From Hyphomicrobium sp. (GTDB lineage Bacteria; Pseudomonadota; Alphaproteobacteria; Rhizobiales; Hyphomicrobiaceae): a DNA stretch of 64,000 nucleotides. The DNA lies in assembly GCA_003987725.1 (NCBI GenBank), contig RXJH01000003.1:495524-559523 (forward strand). Direction: 5' to 3'. Position 1 is the first letter of the stretch, and every line of letters begins with the position of its first letter. The notes under the pieces were generated by a model. It had not been told where the DNA came from. It did not search any database and saw only the letters and a list, made by a program, of their open reading frames with translations. A program made the position numbers and the translations under genes. Positions 3,538-23,770 of this stretch are shown here, piece after piece.

Positions 3538-6500
3538 TTAAATCGCGCGCGCGTCGAGAAGATCGGCTTTGCGGTCAAATTGGGTGACCGGGCCCGGACT
3601 GGCTTGTTCACGACTTGGAGCGACCGCCGTTTCGAGCGCCTTGTTAAGGTGTCCCATGAGCTCCAAGGAATTCGGTCCGAGCAGCAGTGTGTCGTGATCG
3701 CCGGAGATCACCACGGTTTCAATGCCGCCCATGATCACCTTGTCCCAACCATAGCTGGGGCCACCGCCGCTGAAGATGTAGTTCGCGCTTGCCGCCCGGA
3801 ACAGCATCGCCTTTCCGGCCCACGGCTGCGGACGATAACTCGAAGCGGCGCGCACAAAGTTATCCGTCAGCTGACGGTCTCTGAGGTCAAAGGGAACAGT
3901 TTCATCTCGTTGGAGATATTTGGCGATCTGCCGGCGCTGGAGTGCGTGGTGCAGCCACTCGAGCCTGAGCGAAATGATATTCTTGATGTAGCCGAGGCCT
4001 TCATTCCGCAGGCGTGACAGCTTGCGCTTGAAGTCCACGGTTTGGATGGGCATTTGCGGGTGGTAGGTATCGAAGAAGACGACGAGAGGCACATCCTCGC
4101 CGACTTCGGTCAGCTGCCGCGCCATTTCAAACGCGACCACGCCTCCGCCGGAATAACCCGCCAGGAGATAAGGTCCGTGGGGCTGCTGCGCGCGGATCTC
4201 GTCAACGTAGGCCTTCGCCATCTCCTGAATGGACTCGTGCGGCCGGTTCGAACCATCGATGCCGCGGGCCTGAAGACCGAAGAAGGGTTGGTCTTTAGGA
4301 AGCGCCCGGGAAATATCACGGAAGTTGAGGACGTTGCCGCCGGCGCCATGGACGCAGAACAGCGGAGGCCGATTTCCACCTTTGGTGATGTTGACCAAAT
4401 ACTGGAAGCGCTTTGGCGTGAAGGGGATTGTCGCGCCGACCTCGATTGCCGCGTCCGGAAAATTGATGCTTTTCGTAGCGTCCAGAGACGGGTGCGCTTC
4501 GTCTTCGCCGGGCTTTGACAGGCCTTCTTCTTCGTCCGCCTTGAAAGGACCGCGCAGCAGTTCAGCCGTTGCCGCAATTGTCGGAGCCTGAAACAGAACG
4601 GAGAGAGGCAGCTCGACCGTGAAATGCTTGCAAATTCGATTGAGCAGGCGGACCGCGATCAGAGATTGACCTCCGAGGTCGAAGAAGTCGTCCGTGATCG
4701 ATATACGCTGTACGCCGAGCATCTCCTTCCACATCGCCGCCAGCTCCCGCTCGACGGTGTCGCGGGGCGCGACGATATCGGCGTCACTGCCGGTGGCGTT
4801 CGCCTCTGACTGGGCCTTGGCCGTGGTCGCGTCAGAAACTTTGTGAGCGCCTGCATCCAACCGGGAAAGCCAAAGCTCCACGTCAAGTGTCGAGGCGATG
4901 ACTTGGGGAGAACTGTCATTGGCGAGAATACGGTCGAGCGCTTCCAATCCCTCTGAAGGCGTCATGCCCTCGCGCAGGTAGCCTTCCGCAGCCGTCTCCG
5001 TAGCTCGTGGCTTAGTCGAAGCGGCGGTGTCTGAGGCAGCAGCGCTCGTCGCAGCGAACGATTGTGCGCGGCGCATGATGTAGTGTTCGACGGAGACGAG
5101 CACGTTGCCTTGCTCATCGAGCAACGTGGCATCAAAAATCGCGCTCTTGCCGTCCGCAGAGCGCAATCTCACGTGGCTGTAAAGCTTTGCGGTGAGACCC
5201 CGCCGCACCAGAACACGGCCATATGAAAACGGGACATAGAATTCCTCGAGGCCGTTGAACCCCGGGATCAGCATCTGCGCTGCTCCCGTGGCCATGTCGA
5301 GCATCCCGGGGTGCAAGCCACACTCTGCAAGATCCGAATTGTAGGCATCCGGCAGTGCGATGTGGATGAGCGCTTCGCCGTCTCCCAATTGGATCGATTG
5401 GATGTTGGCCCAACGTGGTCCAAAATCCATGAAATGCTGCACGAGTCGACCGTTCGGAACCTCGACGGGACGGGAACAGCGCTCGCGGATGGCCGGTACC
5501 GATTCATGGGTGTCCGGTGGCGCATCGAAATACGCGACGCGAGCCGTCGCAAAAGGCTGCTCCTTGGAATCGCCAAACGCCGTGAAGGTGTGATCGCCGG
5601 TGCGGTTCAGTGTGATATTCAACGCCCGCGTTTCATCGGTGCCGACCGTGAACGGCTGCAGGAACGTGAGATCGCGGATCTCGATAGGTTTGTCTTCGGG
5701 CCGATGAGCCAATGCCGCGCGTGCAAGCTCCAGGTAGCCCGTGCCGGGTATCACAGCCTGGCCGCCCTTGACGACATGATCCCCGAGCAGCCAGTGCGTC
5801 TTCCGGCTGAGGACCGAGTGGAAACGCGACTGTTCAGCCTCGTCGCTCAGACAATCGCCGAGCGGCGGACCCGTATGAGCGACGGCTCGAACGCCATTCT
5901 GTTGCGGCTCACGTACCAGAGCCGCCAGCATGCCGACTTTCCACGCGTTCCAGTCGATGCTGATGGTGCGCGTGCGGCAACCCCGTGCCGAGCGGGCCTT
6001 TGCAAGTGCGTCGAGGAAAGCATTCGCGGCGGTGTAGTCCACCTGTCCCGGTAGCCCAAGGACCGAGCTGACGGATGAAAACAGGACCAGGAAATCCAGA
6101 TCGTTTTCGCCGAAGAGCGATTGCAAGACCAAGGCGCCTTTGGCCTTGACATCGAGAACCGGCGAGCTGGCCTCCGGCGGCCTGAGCGCGATCAACTGAT
6201 CCTGCAGTGCGCCTGCACTATGGAAGACGCCATCGATCCGGCCGAAGCGCCGTTGCGCCTCCGAAACCACACCCGCCATGGCCTTCCGATCCGTAACGTC
6301 GGCCGCAGCGAGCATCACCTCGGCGCCCAAGGCGCGCAGATTCCTGACACCTCTGATCCTGCGCGAGGTATCGTCATCCTCGCTGTGCTCTTTCAGCCAG
6401 GAATCCCAGGCAGTTTCTTCAGGAAGCGCGGAGCGGCCGACGCATACAAGGCGGGCTTTTCCATGCCGCGCCAGATGCTCCATGACTTCTAAGCCGATGC

Positions 6501-9500
6501 CACCAAGTCCGCCCGTAATGAGATAGACGCCGCGCTCACGCAACCATGTGCGTTGGGCCGGCGCTGGTTCGAGCGGTAGTTGATCGAAACGCTGCACCCA
6601 CCGTCCGTTCTTGCGCAGGACGACGAGGGGACTGCGATTGTCAGCTTGAACCTCGATCAGAAGACGATCCGCCAGCTGGGCTTCGGCGTCTGAGCCGGAT
6701 GGAGGAACGATCACATCCACGACAGAACACGACGCGTCAGGCGTTTCGCGCGGCAGGACGCGGCAGACGCCCGCCAAGGTCGCCTTTTCGGGATGAACCT
6801 CGCGCTCGCCTTCGAGCGCTTCGATCGCCGTACCGATTGCAGTCAGCCGGAAGCCGTCCGTACCGAAGGCAAACGTTTGCGATAGATAAAACAGGCTGTC
6901 GTAGTAGCGAACGATGTCCTGATCCCAGGCGGCAAGATCAGCTTCGGCTGCAGAGCGCAGGGGCCGCCACGGGCGCTGGGCCAAAGCCCACAGGTGTACG
7001 ACGTGGACCGGCGTCGCATTTTCCTGACGCAAGGCGACCTTCAATTTCGCGTAGTCTTCAGCATTCGACGGGTCGATGCCAAAGACCAGTCCATCGCGCA
7101 CGCTGAAGCGTGTCGACGGCTCAACGGTCGCAACCGTCACGCCTGATTTGCGAAGACGGGCGACAAGTGCAGCGGCCAACGATGAGCCGTCTGTAAATAC
7201 CAGCCATGGCTTCCGTAGCTGTTCGGCCGAAATCGGATTGGGCTGAACCGAACGATGGAATGATGGCGCAGAGAACCACTTTGTCAGATCGCTCCTGCGT
7301 CTCAGCGTCGGCTGAGCGGCGTGAGTGACGCCCTTTTCGATCCAATACCGCTGATGTTCGAAGGGATACGTGGGCAGCGGCACCCGGTGTTGAGGACCAC
7401 GCGTCAACTGGCTGAGATCGATGTCGCCGCCAGCGACCCAGACCTTGCCAACGGCTTCCAACAGGAACGCAACGTCGGAAACGCTCTCTTGAGGATGCCG
7501 CAACGTATTGGCGACAACGGCGGCCTTCACCGGCTGCTGCCGGCACAGGCTGGAAAGCGTGCGCCCCGGCCCGACCTCAAGCAGCGCGCGGCCACGAGTC
7601 TGCAGCAACGTCGCCGCGCCTTCGTCGAAGCGCACCGTATTGCGCAGGTGACGAACCCAGTAAGTCGGGTCGGTCGCTTCCGCATCGGTGATCCAGGTTC
7701 CCGTGAAGTTGGAAACAAACGGAATCCGTGGCTTCTGGAAGGCAATCTTCCGGCAGTAGCGTTCGAACTCCGGCAGGATCGGCTCAAGCATCGCCGAGTG
7801 CGCGGCCACGTCGATATGAACGCGCGTGCACTCGACCTCGGCCGCCGCGAGCTTCTGCTCGAGCTGCGCGATCGCTCGAACCGGACCCGATGCGACGCAA
7901 AGCGTTGGACCGTTGACCGCGGCAATCGAGAGTTCATCAGAGAGAAATTTACGCGCTTCTGCCTCGGGAAGCGGAATGGACAACATCGCGCCACGGGGGA
8001 GCTTTTCGAACAGCCTGCCACGCATCGCGACCAGAGAAATCGCTTCTCGCATCGAAAGGACGCCTGCGACGCAAGCAGCCGCATACTCGCCAGCACTATG
8101 CCCGATCATGGCCGCAGGCGTCACACCCCACGATGCCAGCAGTTTGACCAGTGCGTATTCGGTTGCAAAGAGAGCAGGTAACGCCAGCGATGGCGCAGCA
8201 AGTTTGAGGTTCGAAATCTCAGCCGAGCTCGGCGGCGCGAACATCAGCGAGCGCAGATCGACACCAAGTTCTGGCTGAACGACGGCAAGGCATTCGTCGA
8301 TGGCCTTGCGATATTCAGGAAACTTTGCGTAAAGCTCTGCCCCCATCCCGCAATACTGCGCCCCGCCGCCGGGGAAAAGAAAGACCGTGGAATGGGGCTC
8401 GCGCGCGGCCTTGCCCGTGAACACCTGGCGCGCGTCGTTCTCATCAAGCGGTGTTGCAGCCGACGCTGCGCTGGTCGCAACAATCGCGCGGCGATGCTCG
8501 AACGTCTCGCGCCCATTGATTAGCGTGAAGGCAACATCGTCTAGCCGCTGCTGGTGATCCGCACGCAGATGATTGGACAGGTTTTTAGAAGCTGCGTCGA
8601 GGGCCTTGTTGCTGCGCGCTGAGAGCACCAGCAACTGCGGTTCGCTTTCACCGCCAACGTCTGACCTGCGCGGCGGTGCCTCTTCGAGAACGAGGTGAGC
8701 GTTGGTACCTCCAGCGCCTAAGCTCGTGATGCCGGCGATCCGCCGCTTGCCGGACCGCGCATTCCATGGCTGAAGGCTCGCATTGACGAAGAACGGCGTA
8801 TTCGACAGATCGGCCTGCGGGTTTGGCCGCTGGTAGTGAAGAGACGCAGGAAGTTCACGGTGCTCGAGTGCACAGATCACCTTGATGAGGCCGCAAATGC
8901 CGGACGCCTCTCCCGCGTGCCCGATGTTGGATTTGAGCGAGCCAATGGCGCAAGACTGCTTCGGCACTTCCGGCCCAAACGCCTCGACAAGTGCCGCGAC
9001 CTCAATCGGATCGCCTATCAGCGTGCCGGTCCCATGGGCCTCGATGTAAGAAACATCGCTCGGCTCAATATCGGCCAGAGCGAGGGCTTCCGAAATCACT
9101 CGCGCTTGCCCGCTCACGCTGGGTGCAAGGTAGCCCACCTTGTCGGATCCGTCGTTGTTGACGGCGGAAGCCCGTATCACTGCGCGGATGCAATCTCCGT
9201 CGCGGACGGCGTCAGAAAGTCGTTTCAGCAGGACGCAACCCGTCGCTGAAGCCATGACGGTTCCACTGGCATCGGCGTCGAAGGGGCGGCAATGCCCGTC
9301 GGGCGAGAGGATCTCTCCTGGTCGATAGAGATAGCCGGTCTGCTCCGGATAGATCGTTGAAGCGCCGGCCAGCGCGACGTCGCATTCACCGTTGAGCAGA
9401 CTCTGACATGCAACGTGCACAGCAACCAAGGACGACGAACACGCCGTCTGCACGTTCATGCTTGGGCCGCTGAGGTTCAACTCATACGAAACGCGCGTGG

Positions 9501-9993
9501 CAAGAAAATTGGAGTCGTTGCCGGTATGGCGCAAAAGCCATGCTCCGACCGTCTCCAGTACCTCTTGGTTGGTGACGAGATTATAGGTGAAATATTCGGT
9601 GGCGCCGGAGGCGGCAAAGACTCCAACTCGTCCGTCGATTTTTTCGCCGACGTATCCCGCGTCCTCGAAAGCCTCCCAAGAGCATTCCAAAAAGAAACGG
9701 TGCTGAGGGTCAAAGACCGCGGCGTCGCGCGGCGACAATCCGAAAAACGCAGCGTCGAATTGGTCTATCCCGTCCAAATAGCCGCAAGCTTTTACGTAGG
9801 CCGGATCGCGAACGGTTTCGAGCGAAACGCCCGATGCAACTAATTCTTCTTCACTGAATACGCGAATGGACTCGCGGCCTTCGCGGAGGTTTTTCCAGAA
9901 GGTGGCGACGTTGGATGCGCCGGGGAACCTGCCCGACATGCCGATGATCGCAATCGCATGACCTTGGTCTTCGTTCCGATCCCCCTGTGTCAT
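3538..9993 (-). CDS. Type I modular polyketide synthase, KS-AT-KR-DH-ACP-TE
   Basis: This is a 2151-residue single-module PKS. The KS spans about 12-440, with active-site TACSSS near 184, EAHGTGT near 320 and NIGHAGE near 357. The AT spans about 535-840, with LFPGGGAQ and GHSAGEY near 633; its VAAHS motif suggests malonyl rather than methylmalonyl loading, but this is weak. A KR structural part is followed by a catalytic KR (ITGGLGGIG near 1157; Tyr in VDYTAANAF near 1321). A DH-type hot-dog domain begins near 1400 (LLGDHVVKGGQAVIPGTG). The ACP is near 1740-1810 (DDFFDLGGQSL), and a type I thioesterase near 1880-2130 (GYSGGG). The DH after the KR is not the common order. The TE makes this the likely final, releasing enzyme. 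ATG at 9993 follows a good GGAGG. It is divergent from the NRPS and probably shares its control region. Confidence 0.95.
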   Translation of the reverse strand: MTQGDRNEDQGHAIAIIGMSGRFPGASNVATFWKNLREGRESIRVFSEEELVASGVSLETVRDPAYVKACGYLDGIDQFDAAFFGLSPRDAAVFDPQHRFFLECSWEAFEDAGYVGEKIDGRVGVFAASGATEYFTYNLVTNQEVLETVGAWLLRHTGNDSNFLATRVSYELNLSGPSMNVQTACSSSLVAVHVACQSLLNGECDVALAGASTIYPEQTGYLYRPGEILSPDGHCRPFDADASGTVMASATGCVLLKRLSDAVRDGDCIRAVIRASAVNNDGSDKVGYLAPSVSGQARVISEALALADIEPSDVSYIEAHGTGTLIGDPIEVAALVEAFGPEVPKQSCAIGSLKSNIGHAGEASGICGLIKVICALEHRELPASLHYQRPNPQADLSNTPFFVNASLQPWNARSGKRRIAGITSLGAGGTNAHLVLEEAPPRRSDVGGESEPQLLVLSARSNKALDAASKNLSNHLRADHQQRLDDVAFTLINGRETFEHRRAIVATSAASAATPLDENDARQVFTGKAAREPHSTVFLFPGGGAQYCGMGAELYAKFPEYRKAIDECLAVVQPELGVDLRSLMFAPPSSAEISNLKLAAPSLALPALFATEYALVKLLASWGVTPAAMIGHSAGEYAAACVAGVLSMREAISLVAMRGRLFEKLPRGAMLSIPLPEAEARKFLSDELSIAAVNGPTLCVASGPVRAIAQLEQKLAAAEVECTRVHIDVAAHSAMLEPILPEFERYCRKIAFQKPRIPFVSNFTGTWITDAEATDPTYWVRHLRNTVRFDEGAATLLQTRGRALLEVGPGRTLSSLCRQQPVKAAVVANTLRHPQESVSDVAFLLEAVGKVWVAGGDIDLSQLTRGPQHRVPLPTYPFEHQRYWIEKGVTHAAQPTLRRRSDLTKWFSAPSFHRSVQPNPISAEQLRKPWLVFTDGSSLAAALVARLRKSGVTVATVEPSTRFSVRDGLVFGIDPSNAEDYAKLKVALRQENATPVHVVHLWALAQRPWRPLRSAAEADLAAWDQDIVRYYDSLFYLSQTFAFGTDGFRLTAIGTAIEALEGEREVHPEKATLAGVCRVLPRETPDASCSVVDVIVPPSGSDAEAQLADRLLIEVQADNRSPLVVLRKNGRWVQRFDQLPLEPAPAQRTWLRERGVYLITGGLGGIGLEVMEHLARHGKARLVCVGRSALPEETAWDSWLKEHSEDDDTSRRIRGVRNLRALGAEVMLAAADVTDRKAMAGVVSEAQRRFGRIDGVFHSAGALQDQLIALRPPEASSPVLDVKAKGALVLQSLFGENDLDFLVLFSSVSSVLGLPGQVDYTAANAFLDALAKARSARGCRTRTISIDWNAWKVGMLAALVREPQQNGVRAVAHTGPPLGDCLSDEAEQSRFHSVLSRKTHWLLGDHVVKGGQAVIPGTGYLELARAALAHRPEDKPIEIRDLTFLQPFTVGTDETRALNITLNRTGDHTFTAFGDSKEQPFATARVAYFDAPPDTHESVPAIRERCSRPVEVPNGRLVQHFMDFGPRWANIQSIQLGDGEALIHIALPDAYNSDLAECGLHPGMLDMATGAAQMLIPGFNGLEEFYVPFSYGRVLVRRGLTAKLYSHVRLRSADGKSAIFDATLLDEQGNVLVSVEHYIMRRAQSFAATSAAASDTAASTKPRATETAAEGYLREGMTPSEGLEALDRILANDSSPQVIASTLDVELWLSRLDAGAHKVSDATTAKAQSEANATGSDADIVAPRDTVERELAAMWKEMLGVQRISITDDFFDLGGQSLIAVRLLNRICKHFTVELPLSVLFQAPTIAATAELLRGPFKADEEEGLSKPGEDEAHPSLDATKSINFPDAAIEVGATIPFTPKRFQYLVNITKGGNRPPLFCVHGAGGNVLNFRDISRALPKDQPFFGLQARGIDGSNRPHESIQEMAKAYVDEIRAQQPHGPYLLAGYSGGGVVAFEMARQLTEVGEDVPLVVFFDTYHPQMPIQTVDFKRKLSRLRNEGLGYIKNIISLRLEWLHHALQRRQIAKYLQRDETVPFDLRDRQLTDNFVRAASSYRPQPWAGKAMLFRAASANYIFSGGGPSYGWDKVIMGGIETVVISGDHDTLLLGPNSLELMGHLNKALETAVAPSREQASPGPVTQFDRKADLLDARAI

Positions 9994-10314: not shown

Positions 10315-13300
10315 ATGATCGAAGATTCGTATCCTCTATCGCCGCTCCAGCAGGGAATGCTGTTTCACCATCTTGAGGCGCAGGTTCCCGGCGTCGACGT
10401 GGAGCAGCTGGAGGTCGAATTCAACGAGCCGATCGACGCTAACCTGCTCGCACGTGCGTGGGCCATTGTCGCCGCGCAACATCCGATCCTGCGCACCCGG
10501 TTCAGCTGGAAGGATTTACGGAATCCGGTCCAGGAGGTTCTGACCGAAGTCAAAGTTCCATTTGAAGTTCGAGATTTATCAGCATTATCGCCGGCCAACC
10601 AGTTGGCGACGCTGAGTGCCTTCCTGACGGAAGACAGATTGACGGCTTTACCTTTGGATCAGGCACCGCTCTGGCGCGTAACCCTGTTTAACCTTGGTCC
10701 AAGCCGACACCATCTCGTATTCACGTATTCCCACGCGATCCTCGACTCCTGCTTCGCATTTGTTGTCCAGGAAGTAATGGACGCCTACGCAGCTCTAATT
10801 CGCGGTGAGCAACCTTCCTTTGCCGAGCGGCCGCCTTATCGCGATTTTATAGCGTGGCTCGGCGAGCATCTTGCTTCCAGCGCGGATGCCGCCGAGACCT
10901 TTTGGCGGACGGCTCTCGCGGGGTTTCAAACGCCCACCAATTTAGAGGCGCTGCGTCTTCCGGGCGGCTCAACGCGCACATCCGGGCCTCACGCCACACT
11001 CGAATTGGAACTGTCTCCGGAGCGCACCGCAAAGCTTCACGCGCTCTGCGATAGGGCGGGGCTGCGCACGTCCACAGTCATAGAGGCGGCCTGGGCGCTC
11101 GTACTTTCAGCGTTTTCCGGTCGTGACGATGTGGTTTTTGGCGTTACGCGGACTTGCCGTCGGTCATCAATTCAGGACGCCGATCGGATCGTCGGGCTTT
11201 TCATCAATACGTTGCCCGTGCGGGTCAAGCTTGACGGCGATGTGAGTGCGCTCGAACTCTGCCAACAATTGCGACGCAACCAGGTGAATACGCGCGCCTT
11301 CGAGCATTCTCCGTTGCCGGATGTTCTTCGCCACAGCGAGTTGCCTCGCACGCAAAATCTCTTCGACACCATTATCGTCTTCAACGCTGAGACCAACGAC
11401 GCACGATTCAAGTCGTTTGGACCAGAATGGAAAAATCGGCACTTCAAGCTGCACGACCAGACGAACTTTCCATTCAATGTGATGGCCTACGACGGGCCTC
11501 AAATATCGTTCAAGCTGTCTTACGATACCAGTTGCTTTTCCCGATCGGCGGTCGACAGGATCGGCGACCTGCTGCGCGTGCTGCTGGACGCGATCGCAGA
11601 TAATCCGGATGCGAAGATTGGCGATCTGCCACGACTCCCATCGCGGGATTCCAGCTTTGTGCTGGAGACGTGGAACGCAACGGACAAGCCGTTGCCTGGT
11701 CCGAACTGCGTTCACGAAGCCTTCGAAGCGCAGGCCGATCGGACACCGGACGCCGTAGCACTCGTTGATGGCGACAGGTCAATCACCTACCGCGAGTTGG
11801 ATAAACGCGCCAATCAAGTGGCGCACGAGATCCTCGCACAAGGCGTGGCGCCGGATCAGATGGTTGGCATTTTTATCGAACGCTCCATCGAGATGATGGT
11901 CGGCCTGCTTGGCATTTTGAAAGCCGGCGCGGCCTATGTGCCGATGGACCCGTCTTACCCCGCCGAGCGCCTCGCGATCATTCTCGAAGATACGCGAGCC
12001 CGGATCGTCGTTACGACATCAGACCTGCGCAGCAAATTGCCGGCGGGATTAAATCTCATCTGCGCTGACACAGCCGGGCAGCATGGAAATGGCGAGCGGC
12101 CGCGGATTGCGGTGACCGGCAACAACTTGGCGTACGTCATATTCACGTCCGGCTCCACCGGACGTCCCAAAGGCGTGATGCTGGAGCACCGCAACGTAAC
12201 AAGCTTCTTCACCGCGATGGACCAAGCTTTGGGAACGGCGCCCGGCATTTGGCTCGCGACAACCAGCATCGCCTTCGACATTTCGGTGCTCGAGCTGTTT
12301 TGGACGCTGGCACGCGGATTTACAGTGGTGATCCAGAAAGAAGCTGAGCGCGACGGACGCGCGGCCGCCCAGCGAGGAAGCGCCACACCCATCGATTTCA
12401 GCCTGTTCTATTTCGCAGCCGACTCCAATGAGGCTGCCGGCGATACCGGCAGTAGATACCGCCTGCTGCTTGAAGGCGCAAAATTTGCTGACGAGAACGG
12501 CTTTTCTGCGATCTGGACACCGGAACGTCACTTCCACGCGTTTGGCGGTTTGTACCCGAACCCTGCGGTGACGGGCGCAGCGGTCGCGGCGGTGACCCGG
12601 CGCGTCGCCATCCGCGCCGGTAGCGTCGTGCTTCCCTTGCACAGTCCGCTCCGCATCGCGGAAGAGTGGTCGGTGGTGGACAATCTGTCGAACGGCCGTG
12701 TCGGTCTGAGCTTCGCTTCTGGCTGGCACGTACGTGATTTCGCTCTGCAACCTCAAAACTACAAAAACCGACGCGAACTTTTTGCCCGCGGCATCGAAAC
12801 CGTCAAAGCGCTGTGGCGCGGCGAAGCCATCGAGACGATCGATGGCGATGGGCAGGCGGTTGAGGTGAAGACCTTCCCGCCGCCGGTGCAGAAAGAACCG
12901 AAATTGTGGGTAACGGCGAGTTCGCACCCCGATACGTTTGCACTCGCAGGGCGGCTCGGCGCCAACATCCTGACGAACCTCCTGGTGATGAAGCCGGAGC
13001 AGTTCGTTGAGAATGTCGCCGTTTATCGCAAGGCCTGGGCGGAAGCGGGTCACGCCGGCCGGGGAACGGTGTCACTGATGCTGCACACGTTCGTCGGCGC
13101 CAATGAAGACGAGGTGCGACGTAAAGTTCACAGCCCCTTCATTGAATACCTCAAGACGTCCACCGACCTAGTCGCGAAAATGCGGTGGGAGTTGACGCCC
13201 TTCGCCAAGCGCGATGACCGCGACGCTTCCGATCCTCGTATGGCCCTGGCGGATCTTCAGCCCGAAGAACTCGACGCCATCATGGAGCACGCCTTCGCAC

Positions 13301-15897
13301 GCTATTTTGAAACCGCGGGCTTGTTTGGAACTCCGGCGTCGTGTGTCGCCAAGGTCGAGAAACTGAAGGCGTACGGCGTCGACGAAATTGCCTGCCTGAT
13401 CGATTTCGGCATCTCTTCCGATGACGTACTGGCGAACCTTCCGCACCTTGATGAATTGCGTCGTTTGTCCAATCCTGGCGCCGATGAGCTGCACCAGGAT
13501 ATTCCCTCACAAATCGCCCGGCATGGCGTGACCCACCTGCAGGCCACGCCATCCCTTGCAAGCATTCTGGCGTCAGACGATGCTTCACTCAATGCATTGG
13601 GCGATTTGCGCATGCTGCTACTGGGCGGCGAGGCGCTCCCGCGTGCGCTGATCGAGCGTTTGCGTTCGAGATACCACGGGCCGATCAACAATATGTACGG
13701 CCCAACCGAAACCTGCATCTGGTCGACGACAGCCAAGGTCGGCGGTGCCGGTGATCCGATCACCATTGGCGGGCCGATCGCGAACACCCGTGTTTACGTG
13801 GTCGATCAATCGCTCCGCCAACAGCCGATTGGAGTGCCTGGCGAAATTGTCATCGGCGGCGCAGGCGTTGCGCGCGGCTATCTGGGACGGCCGGAGCTGA
13901 CCGAAGAACGGTTCGTCCGCAATCCGTTTGGCCGGGACGATGAGCGTCTCTACCGCACGGGCGATCTCGGGCGTTGGCTCGAGAATGGTACGATCGAGTA
14001 CCTCGGCCGGCTCGATCACCAGGTTAAGATTCGCGGTCACAGGATTGAGCCCGGCGAGATCGAGTCCGTACTGGACCGGCATCCCTCGGTGAAACAAAGC
14101 GCAGTCGTCCCGCGCTCCGATGAAGGCAGCAGCGAGCAGCGCCTCATCGCCTATGTCGTGCAGGCGGCCAACGCCAGCGGGGCGTCGGCAGCTCCGACCA
14201 CGGCGCATTGGGAAACAATCTGGGACGAGACGTATCGCGGTACCGGTGACGCGGTCGCCGAAACGGTGGGCTGGAAAAGCAGTTACACCGGCGAGCAAAT
14301 CCCTGAAGAGCAGATGCAGGATTGGATCGAGCGGACGGTGGAGCGGGTCCAGGATCTCCGGCCGCAACGCATCCTCGAGATCGGCTGTGGAACTGGCATG
14401 ATCCTTTTGCGCGTTGCGCCGAACTGCGATCGCTACCACGGAATAGACCTCTCCGAGGCGGCCCTTGCCCGCGTGAGGGCCGAAGCCGATCACAAGGGCC
14501 TAGGCAACGTTGTTCTCACTCAGATGGCCGCGAATGCGGTGGCTTCTTTGGACGGCGGACCGTTCGACACGATCGTCATAAATTCGGTCGCGCAGTACTT
14601 TCCGAACGTCGATTACTTTGTCGATGTTCTGAAGCAGTGTCTCGAGAAGCTGGCCCCGGGCGGGGCGATCTTCGTCGGCGATGTGCGGAGCCGGGCCCTT
14701 CTTGAAGTCATGTTGGCAGAAATTGAATTGCTCAGGGCCTCGCCGGAGACGCCGACGGATGAATTCCGTACGCGCCTGCGCAAGCGGCACGATGACGAGG
14801 CGGAATTGGTGCTGGACCCCGAGCTGTTCCTGACGATGCCGAGATTCATTCCCTCGGTCGAAAGTGTCGAAGTGGAACTGAAAACCGGGCGCGCGCCGAG
14901 CGAGATGACGCGCTTCCGGTACGACGTCGTCATCCGGAAGCAAGGCGGGATCACGCTTGCACACCCGGCGACAACGACCAAGCAGGCACCGCAACCATGC
15001 ACGATTGAGGCGTTGGGCGACATCTTCCGATCCGCACAATCGCCCATCCGTGTGACCGGAATTCCAAATGCCCGGGTGGCATCGGCGGTTGCGGTAATTG
15101 ATAAGCTCAACGCGCGGCCACCTTCGGAGAAATTAGGTTCTCTGGCCGGTCGCTCCAGCCACGGCAATTTGCAAACCGAGGGAATCGATCCCGAAGACGT
15201 GAGATCGCTCGCTGAAAATCGCGATGTGGCCATCGAGTGGTCAGCCGCCGGACGAGGGTTCTTCGATGCTGTTTATCGGCCTCACGTTCTGGACGCGACA
15301 CGCACGAATAATACGGGCGCAATTGGCATTGCCACGCCGGTTGATAGCGCTGCGCCGGATTGGTCTCAGTATGCCAATCGCCCAGTGCTTCGTGGGACTG
15401 GGGAAGAATCTTTGGCGTCGGCTTTGCGTCAGCACCTGCGCAAAACGCTGCCGGAATACATGCTGCCGGCGGCCTTTGTCATGCTCGACGCGTTGCCTTT
15501 AACTCCGAACGGCAAACTCGACCGGCAAGCTCTGCCGGCGCCCGATCGCGCACGTCACGAGACTGCGACGGCCTTTGTCGCGCCAACGACGGACGTGGAA
15601 CGCGAACTCGCGAGCATCTTCCAGGATGTTCTGGGGCTGGCTGAGGTCGGGCTCGATGACAACTTCTTCGACCTTGGCGCCAGTTCCTTGACGATGGTAA
15701 GCGTGGTCGAGAAGATCCGCACGCGGATGGGTGCGAAAGTGTCACTTGTGCGCCTGTTTCAGTTCCCAACTTTGCGAAGCCTCGCCGCTTCGCTCGCAAA
15801 CCGCGAGCGTGATGCGGCAACGGCGGCGCCGGAGCAGAGCCGAGCCAATTTACGCAAGGATATGATGCAGCGTCGGCGTGAAGCACGCGCCCGATAG
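10315..15897 (+). CDS. Single-module NRPS, C-A(luciferase-like monooxygenase + methyltransferase insertions)-PCP
   Basis: The product has about 1860 residues. A condensation domain (1-440) starts SYPLSPLQQGMLFH and has SHAILDS in place of HHxxxDG, keeping the catalytic His. The A domain begins near 470, with FTSGSTGRPKG near 610 and FDISVLELF near 653. From about 691 to 1050 a luciferase-like FMN monooxygenase interrupts it (IDFSLFYFAAD through SFASGWHVRDF and WVTASSHPDTFALAG). The A domain resumes (LLLGGEALP, NNMYGPTETCIW, YRTGDLGRW). Between A8 and A9 sits a SAM methyltransferase (LEIGCGTGMILL near 1352). Then LPEYMLPAAFV, LTPNGKLDR and a PCP (DDNFFDLGASSL) follow. There is no TE or epimerase. 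The pocket read by eye is D-I-L-Q-L-G-M-I-W, which I know as a glycine code. ATG 10315 is preferred; a TTG at 10300 is the alternative. The partner PKS probably supplies release. Confidence 0.95.
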   Translation: MIEDSYPLSPLQQGMLFHHLEAQVPGVDVEQLEVEFNEPIDANLLARAWAIVAAQHPILRTRFSWKDLRNPVQEVLTEVKVPFEVRDLSALSPANQLATLSAFLTEDRLTALPLDQAPLWRVTLFNLGPSRHHLVFTYSHAILDSCFAFVVQEVMDAYAALIRGEQPSFAERPPYRDFIAWLGEHLASSADAAETFWRTALAGFQTPTNLEALRLPGGSTRTSGPHATLELELSPERTAKLHALCDRAGLRTSTVIEAAWALVLSAFSGRDDVVFGVTRTCRRSSIQDADRIVGLFINTLPVRVKLDGDVSALELCQQLRRNQVNTRAFEHSPLPDVLRHSELPRTQNLFDTIIVFNAETNDARFKSFGPEWKNRHFKLHDQTNFPFNVMAYDGPQISFKLSYDTSCFSRSAVDRIGDLLRVLLDAIADNPDAKIGDLPRLPSRDSSFVLETWNATDKPLPGPNCVHEAFEAQADRTPDAVALVDGDRSITYRELDKRANQVAHEILAQGVAPDQMVGIFIERSIEMMVGLLGILKAGAAYVPMDPSYPAERLAIILEDTRARIVVTTSDLRSKLPAGLNLICADTAGQHGNGERPRIAVTGNNLAYVIFTSGSTGRPKGVMLEHRNVTSFFTAMDQALGTAPGIWLATTSIAFDISVLELFWTLARGFTVVIQKEAERDGRAAAQRGSATPIDFSLFYFAADSNEAAGDTGSRYRLLLEGAKFADENGFSAIWTPERHFHAFGGLYPNPAVTGAAVAAVTRRVAIRAGSVVLPLHSPLRIAEEWSVVDNLSNGRVGLSFASGWHVRDFALQPQNYKNRRELFARGIETVKALWRGEAIETIDGDGQAVEVKTFPPPVQKEPKLWVTASSHPDTFALAGRLGANILTNLLVMKPEQFVENVAVYRKAWAEAGHAGRGTVSLMLHTFVGANEDEVRRKVHSPFIEYLKTSTDLVAKMRWELTPFAKRDDRDASDPRMALADLQPEELDAIMEHAFARYFETAGLFGTPASCVAKVEKLKAYGVDEIACLIDFGISSDDVLANLPHLDELRRLSNPGADELHQDIPSQIARHGVTHLQATPSLASILASDDASLNALGDLRMLLLGGEALPRALIERLRSRYHGPINNMYGPTETCIWSTTAKVGGAGDPITIGGPIANTRVYVVDQSLRQQPIGVPGEIVIGGAGVARGYLGRPELTEERFVRNPFGRDDERLYRTGDLGRWLENGTIEYLGRLDHQVKIRGHRIEPGEIESVLDRHPSVKQSAVVPRSDEGSSEQRLIAYVVQAANASGASAAPTTAHWETIWDETYRGTGDAVAETVGWKSSYTGEQIPEEQMQDWIERTVERVQDLRPQRILEIGCGTGMILLRVAPNCDRYHGIDLSEAALARVRAEADHKGLGNVVLTQMAANAVASLDGGPFDTIVINSVAQYFPNVDYFVDVLKQCLEKLAPGGAIFVGDVRSRALLEVMLAEIELLRASPETPTDEFRTRLRKRHDDEAELVLDPELFLTMPRFIPSVESVEVELKTGRAPSEMTRFRYDVVIRKQGGITLAHPATTTKQAPQPCTIEALGDIFRSAQSPIRVTGIPNARVASAVAVIDKLNARPPSEKLGSLAGRSSHGNLQTEGIDPEDVRSLAENRDVAIEWSAAGRGFFDAVYRPHVLDATRTNNTGAIGIATPVDSAAPDWSQYANRPVLRGTGEESLASALRQHLRKTLPEYMLPAAFVMLDALPLTPNGKLDRQALPAPDRARHETATAFVAPTTDVERELASIFQDVLGLAEVGLDDNFFDLGASSLTMVSVVEKIRTRMGAKVSLVRLFQFPTLRSLAASLANRERDAATAAPEQSRANLRKDMMQRRREARAR

Positions 15898-15939: not shown

Positions 15940-17172
15940 CTATACGGCAAACAATGCCAGCGCATCCGGGAGCTGGGGCGCAACCAGAACGGCGCCAATC
16001 ATCGCCCGGAGCGATTGCTCCCGGAAGCGGGAGACCACGTCGAACAAAGTTCGGCTCCTATAGCCTTTGCGAACCGAAAATCCGCCGGAATATGAGATGA
16101 CTTCCGGCTCCCAGCGAGCCTTCGAAATATCGGCGCCTGTAGAAAGGTTCACGATGCGGAATTTGTTATCGATGGCCCATTTAATGGCCTCCACGACGAC
16201 CGTCGTCATCACGCTATAGCGGGCCCAGCGGGGATCGTAACCCGAGTAATAGAGATATAATTCGTCGCCGAATTTGAAGCCGATTCTGGTCGCAACGACC
16301 TCATCGTTGATGACGAGCTGGAAAATTCGCAGCGCCCCGCGCCGTGCGAGTTCGGTGCAATACTGAAGCATAAACGCGCGGCTGACAGGGGATGCAAACA
16401 CATCCGGATGTTTGATCGAAGCGGCGACGCTAGCACGCGCTGAATGAAGAGTAAAAAGCCGATCGAGCGCTGCTGGGACCTCCCCCGGCTTGTCAATGAT
16501 GCGAAGCTGGTACGTGATCTTTTCGGCCCCAAGCGAATTGTAGCACTTTCTAATGGCCTGCTTCATATTCCTGGATAAATTCGCTCTGAGCTGTTCCCAG
16601 CTCGATGGCAGATGCAGAATATGAACTGTCGTTTCTAGGTTAGGCGTTTGACGTATTTCCGCAGGCAATATCGTCGATGTATTTTGCAATCTGAGCCCGC
16701 GCCACTGCACCCAGTCGGCGCCATTTGCGTTATCCAGAAATGCAGAGATCGAGCGAACAACCGCTGGCGTGTGCTCAGGCGAACAGAGCGGCCCGCGAAA
16801 TTCAGTGACGTTTGAATCCGCGCCAAAAAACTGAAGCTCCTTGGCGTTCAGCGGACCATAGCCCGGGCGTTGAGAGACGACCATCGGGGCAACCGCGATT
16901 AGCTCGCCACTGTCGTTACGCAATAGGAAAAGGCGGGGAAAGTCTTTCGCCTTTACATTGCTGCGTTTGTAATGTTGCCACCAAATCGAAGCCCATAAAT
17001 GCGTCGTAAACGGCAGGCGAGGCGAGATGCGCTCATGGAGCGAATCCCACTGCGCAATCAAGTCGTGCAGGCCGGAATCGTCGATGATCGTCTCGACGCT
17101 GAGCATCGGATCCCCTTCGGCACAAAGGTGTGCGGAAGCTACGATGCTTGCCTCTGATTTCATCATCGTCAT
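15940..17172 (-). CDS. GNAT-fold acyltransferase, BioF2-like/CelD family
   Basis: This 410-residue protein resembles the BioF2-like/GNAT_6 family that includes CelD-type proteins of polysaccharide and capsule loci. It has an N-terminal segment with LWASIWWQHY near residue 60 and AVAPMVV near 92. The C-terminal half carries RNMKQAIRKCYN, then VATRIGFKFGDELYLYYSGY followed by a conserved-looking WAIDNKF and NLSTGAD. These proteins are thought to transfer acyl groups, but few substrates are known. The gene converges on the NRPS and ends 43 bases from its stop, so it may be part of the cluster or of the neighbouring envelope genes. The start is uncertain among three Met codons in the first four residues. 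Confidence 0.7.
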   Translation of the reverse strand: MTMMKSEASIVASAHLCAEGDPMLSVETIIDDSGLHDLIAQWDSLHERISPRLPFTTHLWASIWWQHYKRSNVKAKDFPRLFLLRNDSGELIAVAPMVVSQRPGYGPLNAKELQFFGADSNVTEFRGPLCSPEHTPAVVRSISAFLDNANGADWVQWRGLRLQNTSTILPAEIRQTPNLETTVHILHLPSSWEQLRANLSRNMKQAIRKCYNSLGAEKITYQLRIIDKPGEVPAALDRLFTLHSARASVAASIKHPDVFASPVSRAFMLQYCTELARRGALRIFQLVINDEVVATRIGFKFGDELYLYYSGYDPRWARYSVMTTVVVEAIKWAIDNKFRIVNLSTGADISKARWEPEVISYSGGFSVRKGYRSRTLFDVVSRFREQSLRAMIGAVLVAPQLPDALALFAV

Positions 17173-17491: not shown

Positions 17492-20400
17492 TTAGGCGCG
17501 TTCGGCTGTCGAAACCGCCGACGAACTCTTCTCGCCATCGCCTGAAAACCTTGCCTTGAGCTTCTCGAGCAGCAGGTAGATCACCGGCGTCGTGTAGAGC
17601 GTTAGCACCTGCGAGACGACGAGCCCGCCGATAATCGTGATGCCGAGCGGACGGCGCAATTCCGACCCCGGACCGATCGCGACGGCCAGGGGAACGGCGC
17701 CGAGTAGAGCCGCGAGCGTCGTCATCAGGATGGGGCGGAAGCGCTGCAGGCAGGCATCATAGATTGCGTCATGCGGCGATAGGCCGTTCTCGCGTTCCGC
17801 GTGCAGGGCGAAATCGACGAGCATGATCCCGTTCTTCTTCACGATGCCGATCAGCAGAATGACGCCAATCAGCGCAATGACCGATAGGTCCATGCTTGCC
17901 ATCTGCAACGCGAGCAGCGCACCGAGACCCGCGGATGGCAGCGTCGAGATGATCGTCAGGGGATGTGCAAGGCTTTCGTAGAGAACGCCGAGCACGATGT
18001 AGATCGCGACCAGCGCCGCCAGTATCAGCAGCGTCTGCATGCGCGCCTGTTCGATGAAGGCCTTGGCGTCGCCTGCCGCTTCGCCGTGGATTGACTCAGG
18101 CAGATGCAGGCGCTGGAGAGCCTCGTCTATGCCATGAAGACTCGTATCCAAGCTCACGCCCGGCCGCAGATTGTAGTTGATCGTCACGGCCGGGAAGGGC
18201 CCCTGATGGTTGACCACCAGCGGCGCGATGCTTTCGCTCGTTGAAACAAGGCTCGACAGCGGGATCTGCTGGGTGCGGTCGATGGTCGGCACATAAAGGC
18301 GCGAAAGATCCTTGGGGTGAACCTGCAGCTTTGGATCGATTTCCAGAATGACTTTGTATTGGTTGCGGTCGCCGTAAATCGTCGAGAACTGCGTCTGCGC
18401 AAAGGCATTGGAGAGGGCATTATCGATATCGGCAATCGCCACGTTCAGCCGCGACGCGACATCGCGATTGATGTTGACGTTGAGCTGCAGGCCGCCCGCC
18501 TCGCGGTCGGACGTGACGTCTGCCAGTCCCGGCACGGCTCGTACCGCCTCGATGACCTTCGGTATCGATGCGTAGAGATCGTCGGCATTGAGTGACCATA
18601 GCGTGTATTGATAATCCGCTTTGCCGGCGCGCGCCCCGGCGCGAATGTCTCGCGACGGCATCAGCCGCGTTGCGAGGCCGGCAACCTTGCCAAGCGGCGC
18701 GCGCAGCCGATCGATCACGACCGCCGTCGAAACGCCGCCGCGGTCTTCGATCGGCTTCAGGCTGATGAACATGCGGCCTTGGTTCTGTGTCGGATTGGGG
18801 CCGCCCGCACCGATCGAAGAGCCGACGTTATCGACCGCCGGATCGGCGAGGATGATATTGAGCGATTGCCTCTGCAGCCTGCTCATCTCGGCGAACGAGA
18901 CGTCGGTGCTGGCTTCCGTTGCGGCGATGATCAGGCCCGTATCGTCATCCGGCAGATAGCCCTTCGGCAGCACGCTGTAGAAATGGATCGTCAATACGAT
19001 CGTCGCAACGAAGACCGCGAGCATGACGAGCTGATTACGTAGCGCAATTCTGAGCGTGAAGGCATAGGCCCTGACGACCATCGCCAGCGCGCCTTCGAAA
19101 ATGCGGTCGGCGAGGTTTCTGTGTTCTTCCGCGCCGGACTTGATGAAGTGCGCGCAGATCATCGGCGTCACCGTCAGCGAGACGATCGCGGAGATGACGA
19201 TCGCGAACGTCAGCGTCAACGCAAACTCGTGCAGAAGCCGGCCGACGATGCCGGTCATGAACAGCACAGGAATGAACGCCGCGATCAGCGATACCGATAT
19301 CGAAATGACCGTGAAGCCGATTTGATGTGATCCGGCGAGCGCCGCCGCGTAGGGCTTCATGCCCTTTTCCATGTTGCGGTAGACGTTCTCGATCATGACA
19401 ATCGCGTCGTCGACAACGAACCCGACGGCGACGGCAAGCGCCATTAGTGTCAGATTATTGACTGAAAACCCGGCCGCCCACATCGCGGCGCACGTGCCGG
19501 CGAGCGACAGAGGGACCGTAATCCCGGCCGCGATCGTCGGTGTCGAACGCCTGAGAAAGACGAACACGACGGACATGACGAGCAGGATCGTCAAGCCGAG
19601 CGTGAACTGCATGTCGTGCACCGACGCGCGAATCGTCGCCGTCCGGTCGGTCAGAATTGATATGTCTATGCCCGCCGGGATCCATTCCTTGAGCTGCGGC
19701 AGCAGCGCCTTCACGCGGTCGACCGTATCGATGACGTTCGCCTCGGGCGTCTTCGTGATGATCAGAAGCACCGCCGGATCGTGGCCGAAACGCGCCGACG
19801 AACGCGCGTTCCGCGTCGCCTTGATGACCTTCGCAACGTCGCCCACCTTGACGATATCGCCGTTGGGCAGGTTCTTCACGACGATGTCTTTGTATTCGTC
19901 CGGCTCGGTCATCTGCGTATTGGATTGCAGGATGATCGTCTGCCGCTCGCCGTCCACCGAGCCGATCGGTGAGAGATCATTGGCGTTTGAGACGGCGTTC
20001 TTCACGTCGTCGAAGCTGACGCCCATCGAAGCGACGAGCGTGGGATCGACCTGGATGCGCGTCGCCGGCTGGTCTGCGCCGCTCACCGTCACGTCCGCGA
20101 CACCCTGGACCTGCGAAATGCGCTGCCCGATAACCGTGTCGGCGGTATCGTAGATGTCGCTGGTCGTCATCGTCTTCGACGTCAACGCCAGAATGAGAAT
20201 GGGCGATGCGGACGGATTGGCCTTGCGGAATGTCGGAACCTGCGGCAGGTCGCCCGGAAGATCCGCAGTTGCAGCGTTCAATGCGGCCTGCACGTCGCGG
20301 CCCGCGCCGTCGATATTGCGATTGAGATCGAACTGCATCGCGATCGTCGTCGATCCGAGCGAGTTCGTCGAGGTCATCTCCGTGACGCCGGCGATCTCGC

Positions 20401-20614
20401 CGAGCCGCCGTTCGAGCGGTGAGGCAACGCTGGACGCCATCGTGGCCGGATCGGCGCCGGGGCGCGTCGCCATGATGCGCACGGTCGGAAAATCGATTGC
20501 CGGCATGCTGGCGACAGGAAGCAGACCGTAGGCGACGGCGCCCGCGAGGAACAAGCCGACGGCGAGCAACGCGGTTCCGATAGGTCTCTCGATGAAGATG
20601 CGTGAGACGTTCAT
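17492..20614 (-). CDS. RND efflux permease, MdtC/MexQ-like
   Basis: The 1040-residue inner-membrane HAE1-type RND transporter begins MNVSRIFIERPIGTALLAVG. It has the twin aspartates in TM4 (GFVVDDAIVMIENVY near residue 405) and the TM10 lysine (GIVKKNGIMLVDFAL near 920), which carry the proton-relay residues. Full-length compared with the usual 1030-1050. It starts 3 bases after the preceding pump gene stops, so it is the third gene of a minus-strand operon with the adaptor (23767-25140) and the second RND pump. Two different pumps behind one adaptor is the MdtABC arrangement, where the pumps form a heterotrimer. No outer-membrane TolC-type channel is encoded alongside. Substrates are unknown; export of the neighbouring NRPS-PKS product is possible but unproven. 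Confidence 0.93.
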   Translation of the reverse strand: MNVSRIFIERPIGTALLAVGLFLAGAVAYGLLPVASMPAIDFPTVRIMATRPGADPATMASSVASPLERRLGEIAGVTEMTSTNSLGSTTIAMQFDLNRNIDGAGRDVQAALNAATADLPGDLPQVPTFRKANPSASPILILALTSKTMTTSDIYDTADTVIGQRISQVQGVADVTVSGADQPATRIQVDPTLVASMGVSFDDVKNAVSNANDLSPIGSVDGERQTIILQSNTQMTEPDEYKDIVVKNLPNGDIVKVGDVAKVIKATRNARSSARFGHDPAVLLIITKTPEANVIDTVDRVKALLPQLKEWIPAGIDISILTDRTATIRASVHDMQFTLGLTILLVMSVVFVFLRRSTPTIAAGITVPLSLAGTCAAMWAAGFSVNNLTLMALAVAVGFVVDDAIVMIENVYRNMEKGMKPYAAALAGSHQIGFTVISISVSLIAAFIPVLFMTGIVGRLLHEFALTLTFAIVISAIVSLTVTPMICAHFIKSGAEEHRNLADRIFEGALAMVVRAYAFTLRIALRNQLVMLAVFVATIVLTIHFYSVLPKGYLPDDDTGLIIAATEASTDVSFAEMSRLQRQSLNIILADPAVDNVGSSIGAGGPNPTQNQGRMFISLKPIEDRGGVSTAVVIDRLRAPLGKVAGLATRLMPSRDIRAGARAGKADYQYTLWSLNADDLYASIPKVIEAVRAVPGLADVTSDREAGGLQLNVNINRDVASRLNVAIADIDNALSNAFAQTQFSTIYGDRNQYKVILEIDPKLQVHPKDLSRLYVPTIDRTQQIPLSSLVSTSESIAPLVVNHQGPFPAVTINYNLRPGVSLDTSLHGIDEALQRLHLPESIHGEAAGDAKAFIEQARMQTLLILAALVAIYIVLGVLYESLAHPLTIISTLPSAGLGALLALQMASMDLSVIALIGVILLIGIVKKNGIMLVDFALHAERENGLSPHDAIYDACLQRFRPILMTTLAALLGAVPLAVAIGPGSELRRPLGITIIGGLVVSQVLTLYTTPVIYLLLEKLKARFSGDGEKSSSAVSTAERA

Positions 20615-20617
20615 CGC

Positions 20618-23600: not shown

Positions 23601-23770
23601 TCGGGGCTCGCGCCCGGAAGCTCGGTCGTCACCTCGACGGTCGGAAAATCGACCTGCGGCAACGACGATACCGGCAACGAGAGGTAGCCGAGGATACCGC
23701 CGAGAATGGTCGCGACCGCGAGAAGGAATGTCGCGATCGGCCGCTCGATAAAGGGCCGGGAAACGCTCAT
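20618..23770 (-). CDS. RND efflux permease, MdtB-like
   Basis: This second HAE1-type RND pump has 1050 residues and starts MSVSRPFIERPIATFLLAVA. TM4 shows GFVVDDAIVMIENVV (near residue 405) and TM10 GIVKKNAIMMIDFAL (near 925). Thus both the Asp pair and the Lys of the proton pathway are present and it should be an active antiporter rather than a structural subunit only. Its ATG lies inside the stop of the adaptor gene (ATGA, 23767-23770), so translation is coupled. It is more similar in layout to its operon partner than to AcrB, consistent with an MdtB/MdtC-type duplication. The C-terminus is a short acidic tail of unknown role. Confidence 0.93.
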   Translation of the reverse strand: MSVSRPFIERPIATFLLAVATILGGILGYLSLPVSSLPQVDFPTVEVTTELPGASPETMSTLVTASLERQFGQIQSLASMSSTSSFGLSRITLQFNLDRDIDAAAQDVQAAINAAGSTLPRNLPYPPTYSKVNPADTPIVTLALTSDTQSLRSLSDLADTLLAQRLASVSGVGHVAIEGGIKPAVRVEADVSRLASYGLSMADLSSAIASANVAGPKGSLDGEKQSYTIAANDQIDQAHVYEDVIIAYRNSAPVRIKDVARVSEGLENTRVGGWYNGKPAVIVDVQRQPGANVLDTVARIKAELPRVESSMPAGVNLQVVSDRTGTIKASVNDVQFTLVLSVGLVIMVVLLFLRSMRATIIAGVALPVSLIATFGVMYFCGFSLDNLSLMALTIGTGFVVDDAIVMIENVVRHIEKGEKPMKAALDGAREIGFTVISLTLSLIAVFIPLLFMTGLVGRMFREFAMTLTIAVVVSAVVSLTLTPMMCSRLLRAGGHDEKAGVIGRFFERVISGYGRTLEFVFRHQGATLVVALLTVVVTVWLYVIMPKGFLPDQDTGAITAVVEGGPQISFAEMTRLQKDIAAIAAADPDVSGVASIVGIGQLNATQNVGSLKIMLKPRDERKSNVVQVIERLKHAVRPNAGTIVYFQPVQDVQISTQASRARYQYTLASTDVDEVSEWAKKMAAALHESRVFRNVASEEVDGGLIARVDVDRVTAGRLGVTMQAVNDALSNAFGQRQVSTIYEQANQYRVVLEAAPEYRSDPSRLDRLYVPSSTTGTQVLLTSVASVKYDTAPLAISHQDQFPAITISFNLAPNASLSDALAAIDTAKKSIDLPASVTGTFYGDAAEFSKSLENQPWLILAAIVTIYIVLGVLYESLIHPFTILTTLPSAGIGAALALELTGNDLSFVALIGIILLMGIVKKNAIMMIDFALEAERERGLSPRDSIKEAALLRFRPIMMTTLAALFGALPLALESGTGSELRNPLGITIVGGLLLSQLLTLYTTPVIYLTMERIRARLSGRQVDTGEGPAAEPATAGMAGRPDSLSEAAE

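Follow-up and report, generated by a model that had tools for sequence, protein, structure and literature searches.

What would a bacterium build with a peptide synthetase module whose single adenylation domain holds two further enzymes? The question is raised by a nonribosomal peptide synthetase (NRPS) gene of Hyphomicrobium sp., a soil methylotroph. The gene lies in a stretch of 64,000 nucleotides (assembly GCA_003987725.1, contig RXJH01000003.1, positions 495,524 to 559,523 of the forward strand), which was analysed as a whole and is called the window here. Its adenylation (A) domain is interrupted by a luciferase-like monooxygenase (LLM) that would use flavin mononucleotide (FMN), and again by an S-adenosylmethionine (SAM) methyltransferase of the backbone N-methylating type (N-MT). 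It is proposed, with a probability of about 0.5, that this is a glycine module with two extra reactions in cis, which would hand an N-methylated, C-alpha-hydroxylated glycine to a partner polyketide synthase (PKS). The parts of the gene are the following (window coordinates).

10315..15897, + strand: NRPS gene of 1860 aa, condensation (C)-A(LLM)(N-MT)-peptidyl carrier protein (PCP), without thioesterase (TE); Pfam/NCBIfam
10321..11646, + strand: condensation domain, PF00668, residues 3-444
11722..12354, + strand: N half of the A domain (A1-A4), PF00501, AMP-binding residues 470-680
12397..13461, + strand: embedded luciferase-like FMN monooxygenase at the A4/A5 site, TIGR04020
13504..14184, + strand: A5-A8 of the A domain; AA-adenyl-dom resumes at residues 1064-1264
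14242..14994, + strand: embedded SAM methyltransferase of backbone N-MT type at the A8/A9 site, PF08242 among other matches; approximate boundaries
14995..15384, + strand: C-terminal extension of the N-MT insert; approximate boundaries
15412..15564, + strand: A9-A10 (LPEYMLP at residue 1712, NGKLDR at 1732)
15604..15789, + strand: PCP (DNFFDLGASSL), PF00550, residues 1764-1825
15835..15894, + strand: basic C-terminal tail (SRANLRKDMMQRRRE...), a proposed docking element to the PKS, from a comparison of tails

The gene is a single uninterrupted frame with its ATG at 10315 and a stop codon that ends at 15897; a TTG lies 15 bases 5' of the ATG. In the Pfam/NCBIfam scan of the 1860-aa protein no TE was found, and AMP-binding_C was matched in two stretches. 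A chance or frameshift artefact was rejected: the frame is single, the double insert occurs in 12 distinct loci and the ratio of nonsynonymous to synonymous substitutions (dN/dS) is far below 1. The genome that carries the gene (4.25 Mb) is 99.98% complete. The closest named relative of the protein is from Hyphomicrobium facile (88%), and a metagenome-assembled genome (MAG) of Proteobacteria reaches 91%.

The first interruption was described in the earlier note as a luciferase-like monooxygenase after the FDISVLELF motif, and this is what was found. The motif occupies residues 654-662, GFTVVI ends at residue 673, and the LLM begins about 20 residues past A4, ahead of A5. The luciferase fold, looked for near residues ~691-1050, is present there as matches to Bac_luciferase (698-1023) and TIGR04020 (695-1049); the latter scores 486.4 bits against a curated cut-off of 244.45 and covers its whole model (1-341 of 341). 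The nearest solved relative is the flavin monooxygenase domain of PuwE (6KET, 355 bits), solved as an isolated domain without a methyltransferase. The residues P-E-R-H-F..F-G are unchanged across 37 aligned rows. An AlphaFold2 model of the A-LLM-A part, made from 28 sequences (mean pLDDT, predicted local distance difference test, 83.1; predicted TM score 0.56), matched 6KET in a fold search with a TM score of 0.90-0.92 of the target at 2.3-3.0 Å. The same model matches A domains over ~780-840 columns with a high rmsd (6-17 Å), so the relative placing of its parts is not trustworthy.

The window LLM shares its NCBI family name (MupA/Atu3671) with MupA of the mupirocin pathway. According to the consulted part of PMC10952193, MupA hydroxylates in vitro the position alpha to the carrier-bound thioester of a beta-ketoacyl acyl carrier protein (ACP); it is stand-alone, unlike the embedded LLM of the window. 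A reading as N-hydroxylation, leading to an N-methoxy unit, was dropped, as no support for it was found in the literature found on this LLM family. As a side observation, a flavin reductase gene, a candidate supplier of FMNH2, lies directly after the LLM-NRPS of Streptomyces sp. NBC_01343 (L136:9051-9572; related loci carry L numbers).

The second interruption was likewise borne out. A8 reads HQVKIRGHRIEPGE (residues 1235-1248), A9/A10 follow the methyltransferase, and the methyltransferase core was placed by Pfam at about residues 1353-1451. Its nearest solved relative is the A domain of TioS with an embedded N-MT (5WMM, 149 bits), the next solved one reaching 42. As in the window, the backbone N-MT of TioS sits at A8/A9, while the solved TioS chain has no LLM and its substrate differs. 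Residues ~1617-1742, which comprise the second half of this extension together with A9/A10, align to 5WMM 807-924 (37 bits), whereas most other A domains align to the stretch behind the methyltransferase only from A9 onward. A dead methyltransferase, recognisable by the loss of SAM motif residues, was looked for: LEIGCGTG is present, its L, E, G and GTG do not vary among 13 aligned rows, nor do NSV, Q and FP in INSVAQYFP.

A methyl group on nitrogen, or on the oxygen of a hydroxylated carbon or nitrogen, had been considered in the earlier note. Because the nearest solved relative is a backbone N-MT, N-methylation is favoured. The N-methyl option, combined with a C-alpha-hydroxyl, is the better supported one for the window, and methylation of an O- or N-oxygen is less supported there. 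The methyltransferase could instead act on the new alpha-hydroxyl and give alpha-methoxyglycine, as the sharing of one A domain by LLM and methyltransferase might suggest. A second kind of double insert points in the same direction: in Nostoc sp. C052 (L134:9691-15153) and Streptomyces sp. KN37 (L138:4003-9084) the LLM occupies A4/A5, and the stretch that separates the main A part from the PCP, at the A8/A9 position, contains a methyltransferase of the FkbM family (PF05050). Their A domains have a glycine code and fall outside the N-MT group in the tree discussed below. Since FkbM enzymes are mostly O-methyltransferases, these two modules may produce alpha-methoxyglycine, and it is to them that the O-methyl option may apply. 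For the window enzyme the scores against TioS and the next solved relative, and the alignment of part of the extension to TioS as well, make O-methylation improbable.

The combination is not unique to the window, as was first considered and then rejected. With the window, 12 distinct loci carry LLM and N-MT together: five of Hyphomicrobium type (the window counted), six of Bradyrhizobium type and one in a Gemmatimonadaceae MAG (L007). In a tree of 50 A-LLM-A sequences, made by a quick method without bootstrap, the 12 lie on one side of a starred branch with an SH-aLRT (Shimodaira-Hasegawa-like approximate likelihood ratio test) value of 97. In L007 both inserts are present and no PCP follows A10 in its 7.3 kb contig; the end of the frame matches Peptidase_M24 (L007:6273-7301). 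The sample of loci is not random: the search with the window protein gave 67 loci, a set of 16 regions was hand-picked, and 12 plasmid records were examined from 78 with a match (30 listed). Some loci are repeats (L072 of L004, L088 of L005, L087 of L006, L127 and L109 of L068). At E 1e-60, genomes with an LLM match number 5/22 in the genus, 16/397 in the order, 11/385 in the class, 19/398 in the phylum and 10/242 in the Bradyrhizobium-type genus, where the counts outside the own genus also take in LLMs that stand outside A domains.

Both inserts are under purifying selection. Against four relatives, dN/dS is 0.066-0.088 for the LLM, 0.107-0.173 for the methyltransferase, 0.113-0.197 for the two large A parts, 0.039-0.123 for A9-A10, 0.113-0.144 for C, 0.028-0.190 for the PCP and 0.225-0.355 for the methyltransferase extension; the ratios against L068 are rough, as dS exceeds 1 there in all eight segments. 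The faster evolution of the extension is what could speak for one insert, or both, being an inactive scaffold. With purifying selection on both and invariant motif residues, this is highly improbable.

The substrate follows from the A domain code, to which the N half and A5-A8 contribute. It reads DILQLGMIW, a glycine-like code that differs at one position from DILQLGLIW(K), which we take to be the glycine specificity code. The glycine-like pattern DIL[QH].G.[IV]W was read by script in 51 of 53 distinct LLM-embedded A domains and in 5 of the 112 fully read A domains without LLM from the same loci. The 53 embedded and 211 control domains are those left after removal of duplicates, judged by the first 120 residues of the A1 match, and 99 of the 211 controls, not fully readable, were dropped. 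The 53 include L033 despite its weak A1/A2 similarity (24-25%); this locus and L136 (DMVQLGMVW) are the two exceptions. The 51 carriers include Alphaproteobacteria, Gammaproteobacteria MAGs, Gemmatimonadota, Planctomycetota, Bacteroidota and Bacillota, as well as a Nostoc, a Deinococcus and Streptomyces. The glycine code has stayed fixed across very different assembly lines.

This bears on another possible role of the LLM. As a MupA-type enzyme it could hydroxylate the beta-ketoacyl chain that the partner PKS carries on its ACP, with the glycine module as a mere carrier: MupA works on a beta-keto thioester (PMC10952193, as far as consulted), and several LLM relatives sit beside or inside PKS modules (L032, L083, L095, L131, L141). 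Such a role is distinctly unlikely, given that 51 of the 53 embedded LLMs lie in glycine-code A domains, some of them with no PKS in the available piece (L026, L028, L123), and that the variants with LLM and FkbM are most easily read as methylating a hydroxyl made in cis. An oxidised and methylated glycine unit, as had been proposed at the outset from the gene alone, is favoured by the glycine code, by an LLM that belongs to the MupA/Atu3671 family and is closest to PuwE, and by a TioS-type N-MT.

Where would this unit go? Although the protein does contain one module, as the earlier note had it, it must be seen as one of two proteins that form a system, the other being encoded by the following gene.

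3538..9993, - strand: partner type I PKS, ketosynthase (KS)-acyltransferase (AT)-ketoreductase (KR)-dehydratase (DH)-ACP-TE, divergent from the NRPS; Pfam/NCBIfam and synteny

It is the sole type I PKS found in the genome, and KR precedes DH in it. The KS Cys and His, the AT Ser and the DH His and Asp, the known motif residues of these domains, are kept in all 23 aligned PKS frames; the DH Pro is replaced by Cys in L119, and some frames lack ACP or TE, either through truncation of the available piece or because the protein has none. The PKS adjoins the NRPS in Hyphomicrobium and Bradyrhizobium loci. More widely, in 26 of 30 loci (the window and 25 of 29 others) the NRPS has a KS-AT-KR-DH PKS as its direct neighbour or with one gene between. 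These comprise all nine loci of N-MT type (window, L004, L005, L006, L068, L116, L126, L128, L129), four of eight loci of C type without methyltransferase (L009, L010, L012, L014) and all 13 of formyltransferase type (L117-L122, L124, L125, L132, L133, L135, L140, L143). One gene stands between PKS and NRPS in L121, L124, L125 and L135, and the two are head-to-tail in several loci, such as L009, L012, L014, L122 and L143. Excluded from the 30 were loci of other architectures (L026, L028, L123, L134, L136, L138, L142), L130, cut by a contig end, and pieces that are too short (for example L001, L007, L013, L017, L071-L082, L087-L111).

Three observations bear on the direction. In 21 of these 26 loci the PKS carries a TE; in L119 and L133 the PKS runs on into C-A-PCP-TE, so that the TE stands after the added module. 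The PKS of L126, L129 and L140 is cut off before the TE, with no ACP seen, and no TE was seen in L010 and L014. Secondly, in all six alphaproteobacterial relatives scanned with Pfam the NRPS begins with a formyltransferase (PF00551 and PF02911) and has no Condensation match; the formyltransferase was also found by BLAST in L119, L125, L132, L133, L135 and L143, and in L140 a similar one is encoded by a separate gene. Thirdly, the basic C-terminal tails of the NRPS are similar, 13 of 16 fitting [DNKS]R[GA]..R, a pattern that was written after inspecting the tails and that fails in L120, L124 and L135. They suggest that the NRPS acts first and the PKS second, with the TE last.

The proposed route can then be outlined. 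The A domain would load glycine, whose amine would be methylated by the N-MT while bound to the PCP, in the manner reported for TioS. The C domain would add an acyl cap to that nitrogen, and the LLM, supplied with FMNH2 by an outside reductase, would hydroxylate C-alpha next to the thioester to yield N-acyl-N-methyl-alpha-hydroxyglycyl-S-PCP. The basic tail of the NRPS would dock to the PKS, which would add one malonate, followed by reduction and dehydration. Finally, release by the PKS TE would give a lactone or a short acid, such as gamma-(N-methylamido)-gamma-hydroxy-crotonate or the corresponding butenolide. The crotonate or butenolide is a guess that assumes one PKS cycle; the PKS could iterate.

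A different fate is known for MtaG and MelG of the myxothiazol and melithiazol pathways, with which the module had been compared. By the description in the consulted part of PMC10204066, their flavin monooxygenase (FMO) domains lie between A4 and A5, as in the window, and hydroxylate the C-alpha of glycine; cleavage to the amide follows, and the amide is freed, with a TE coming next. An embedded N-MT is not mentioned in that description, with which the comparison was made. By analogy, an acyl chain from the PKS or another source would be joined to N-methylglycine in the window, C-alpha would be hydroxylated, and the carbinolamide would split into an acyl N-methylamide, leaving a glyoxylyl thioester for the TE. 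The A4/A5 site and the type of substrate agree with those domains (PMC10204066, consulted part), the partner PKS, with no other of type I found in the genome, could make the chain, and it offers a TE. A TE at the end of the PKS, however, would free the chain before transfer, and the six scanned relatives that start with a formyltransferase, having no Condensation match, cannot accept an acyl chain in the usual way. Nor does the A4/A5 site imply release, because such modules also sit in mid-line, for example in L026, where a C domain follows the PCP. The comparison with MtaG thus holds for insertion site and glycine substrate, but amide release is not favoured, because the NRPS ends without a TE and its partner PKS has one at its end. 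Oxidative off-loading is therefore unlikely, and handing over N-methyl C-alpha-hydroxyglycine is the best reading.

A retained alpha-hydroxyglycine has a precedent in solanimycin. SolF combines, like the window protein, a glycine A domain with a flavin monooxygenase, and glycine alpha-hydroxylation is found in solanimycin B, the alpha-hydroxyglycine being kept in the product; its FMO sits at A8/A9, unlike that of the window, and an embedded methyltransferase is not mentioned in the consulted part (PMC10204066). The literature searched, which included few subscription papers, yielded neither an A domain with LLM and methyltransferase nor this type of cluster. Two methyltransferases within one A domain are reportedly covered in a review on interrupted A domains. 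ColG of the columbamide pathway (A-Ms-Mb-A) likewise has two tailoring domains in one A domain, but these are two methyltransferases at one site, with no oxygenase (PMC11355689, as far as consulted).

Several points weigh against the proposed hand-over. The methyltransferase was typed by its nearest solved relative and motif rather than by a tree of typed methyltransferases, the code positions behind the glycine assignment were set by eye against the GrsA numbering, and part of the 51 of 53 is due to shared descent. PKS and NRPS are divergent in the window, so gene order alone gives no direction; the PKS lies upstream of the NRPS in L124, L125 and L135; and no adjacent PKS was seen in the available piece of four of the eight C-type loci without methyltransferase (L008, L011, L069, L070), L011 offering only ~1 kb downstream. 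No FMN reductase was found among the cluster genes. MupA, in the consulted part of PMC10952193, accepts a beta-keto and not a beta-hydroxy substrate, and the LLM could therefore act one step later. The acyl cap adds its own difficulties. The C domain resembles elongation C domains, and in this clade it has an odd SHxxxDS motif. The cluster genes scanned include neither a loading module nor a gene for an acyl-CoA ligase or free ACP, the ligase and ACP not having been searched genome-wide.

The nearest solved relative of the C domain is McyB (242 bits). In the window protein the HHxxxDG motif reads SHAILDS (10729-10749), with the second His and the Asp kept and the first His and the Gly replaced by Ser. 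Besides the window, the nine long loci read from the same clade show SHAILDS (L127 duplicates L068), and the 16 other C-type loci that were read, among them L007, lack it. A second NRPS or PKS of the genome was rejected as loader: the genome contains a single C domain, a single PS-DH domain and a single PKS-type KS linker (KAsynt_C_assoc), and the one further AT-like frame besides the PKS, of 345 aa, is the size of FabD. Because no other C domain, PS-DH or PKS-type KS linker is seen, NRPS and PKS are probably the whole assembly line.

Around the two genes the window holds the following features.

1686..2369, + strand: 4'-phosphopantetheinyl transferase (PPTase), kept in three Hyphomicrobium loci
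2366..3511, + strand: SGNH/DUF4886-like hydrolase or acyltransferase; signal-like N terminus by eye, DUF4886 below cut-off
15940..17172, - strand: GNAT protein (Acetyltransf_6), accessory; in Hyphomicrobium loci, not in the available Bradyrhizobium pieces
17492..25296, - strand: MdtABC/MuxABC-like resistance-nodulation-division (RND) pump, two permeases and an adaptor; in Hyphomicrobium loci, not in the available Bradyrhizobium pieces

The SGNH-like gene overlaps the PPTase gene by 4 bases and recurs beside L011, L124, L125, L132 and the Hyphomicrobium and Bradyrhizobium loci that reach that far. In a fold search its model (mean pLDDT 71.2) gave one PDB match under E 0.001, the DUF4886 protein 4I8I (E 7e-7), and is weakly like PatB and esterases. 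No outer-membrane channel gene was found among the scanned neighbours of the pump. The remaining window genes scanned are housekeeping genes or gave no match.

The formyltransferase-started relatives resemble the formylating initiation modules OzmO and LgrA. OzmO formylates glycyl-S-PCP, and an LLM is not mentioned in the consulted part of PMC4979870; the window protein has a C domain in place of the formyltransferase. PPTase, SGNH protein or polysaccharide genes are seen near several of these loci. Polysaccharide-type genes (glycosyltransferases, O-antigen ligase, polysaccharide export or chain length) lie near seven of the 13: L117, L121, L124, L125, L132 of Aminobacter, L135 of Ruegeria and L140 of Deinococcus. 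None was found in the annotated stretch of L133 (Aliiroseovarius), in the two neighbours scanned of L118 or in the one scanned of L122; the count leaves out L119, L120 and L143. No described product of the LLM-glycine NRPS/PKS family, the formyltransferase type included, was found in the literature searched.

On a broader and quite doubtful view, the glycine NRPS with LLM and its PKS would be a widespread two-protein machine of several phyla that builds a C4 aminal block. If so, the block would be an N-capped gamma-amino-gamma-hydroxy-crotonate or its butenolide. Many Alphaproteobacteria would form an N-formylated version to decorate the envelope or exopolysaccharide, and the Hyphomicrobium/Bradyrhizobium branch would have replaced the formyl group by an acyl cap and N-methylation and turned to a secreted metabolite.

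What the locus holds is one A domain that naturally carries an oxygenase and an N-methyltransferase at two separate insertion sites, so that acylation, adenylation, oxidation and methylation would be combined in one module for one carrier-bound amino acid. With the LLM insertion at A4/A5 tied to glycine, amide release as modelled for MtaG can be put to the test against a model of elongation. Finally, a recurrent two-protein PKS/NRPS family emerges in soil and marine bacteria, with its formyltransferase-started form often near polysaccharide genes, and a pathway of two genes would be easy to express.

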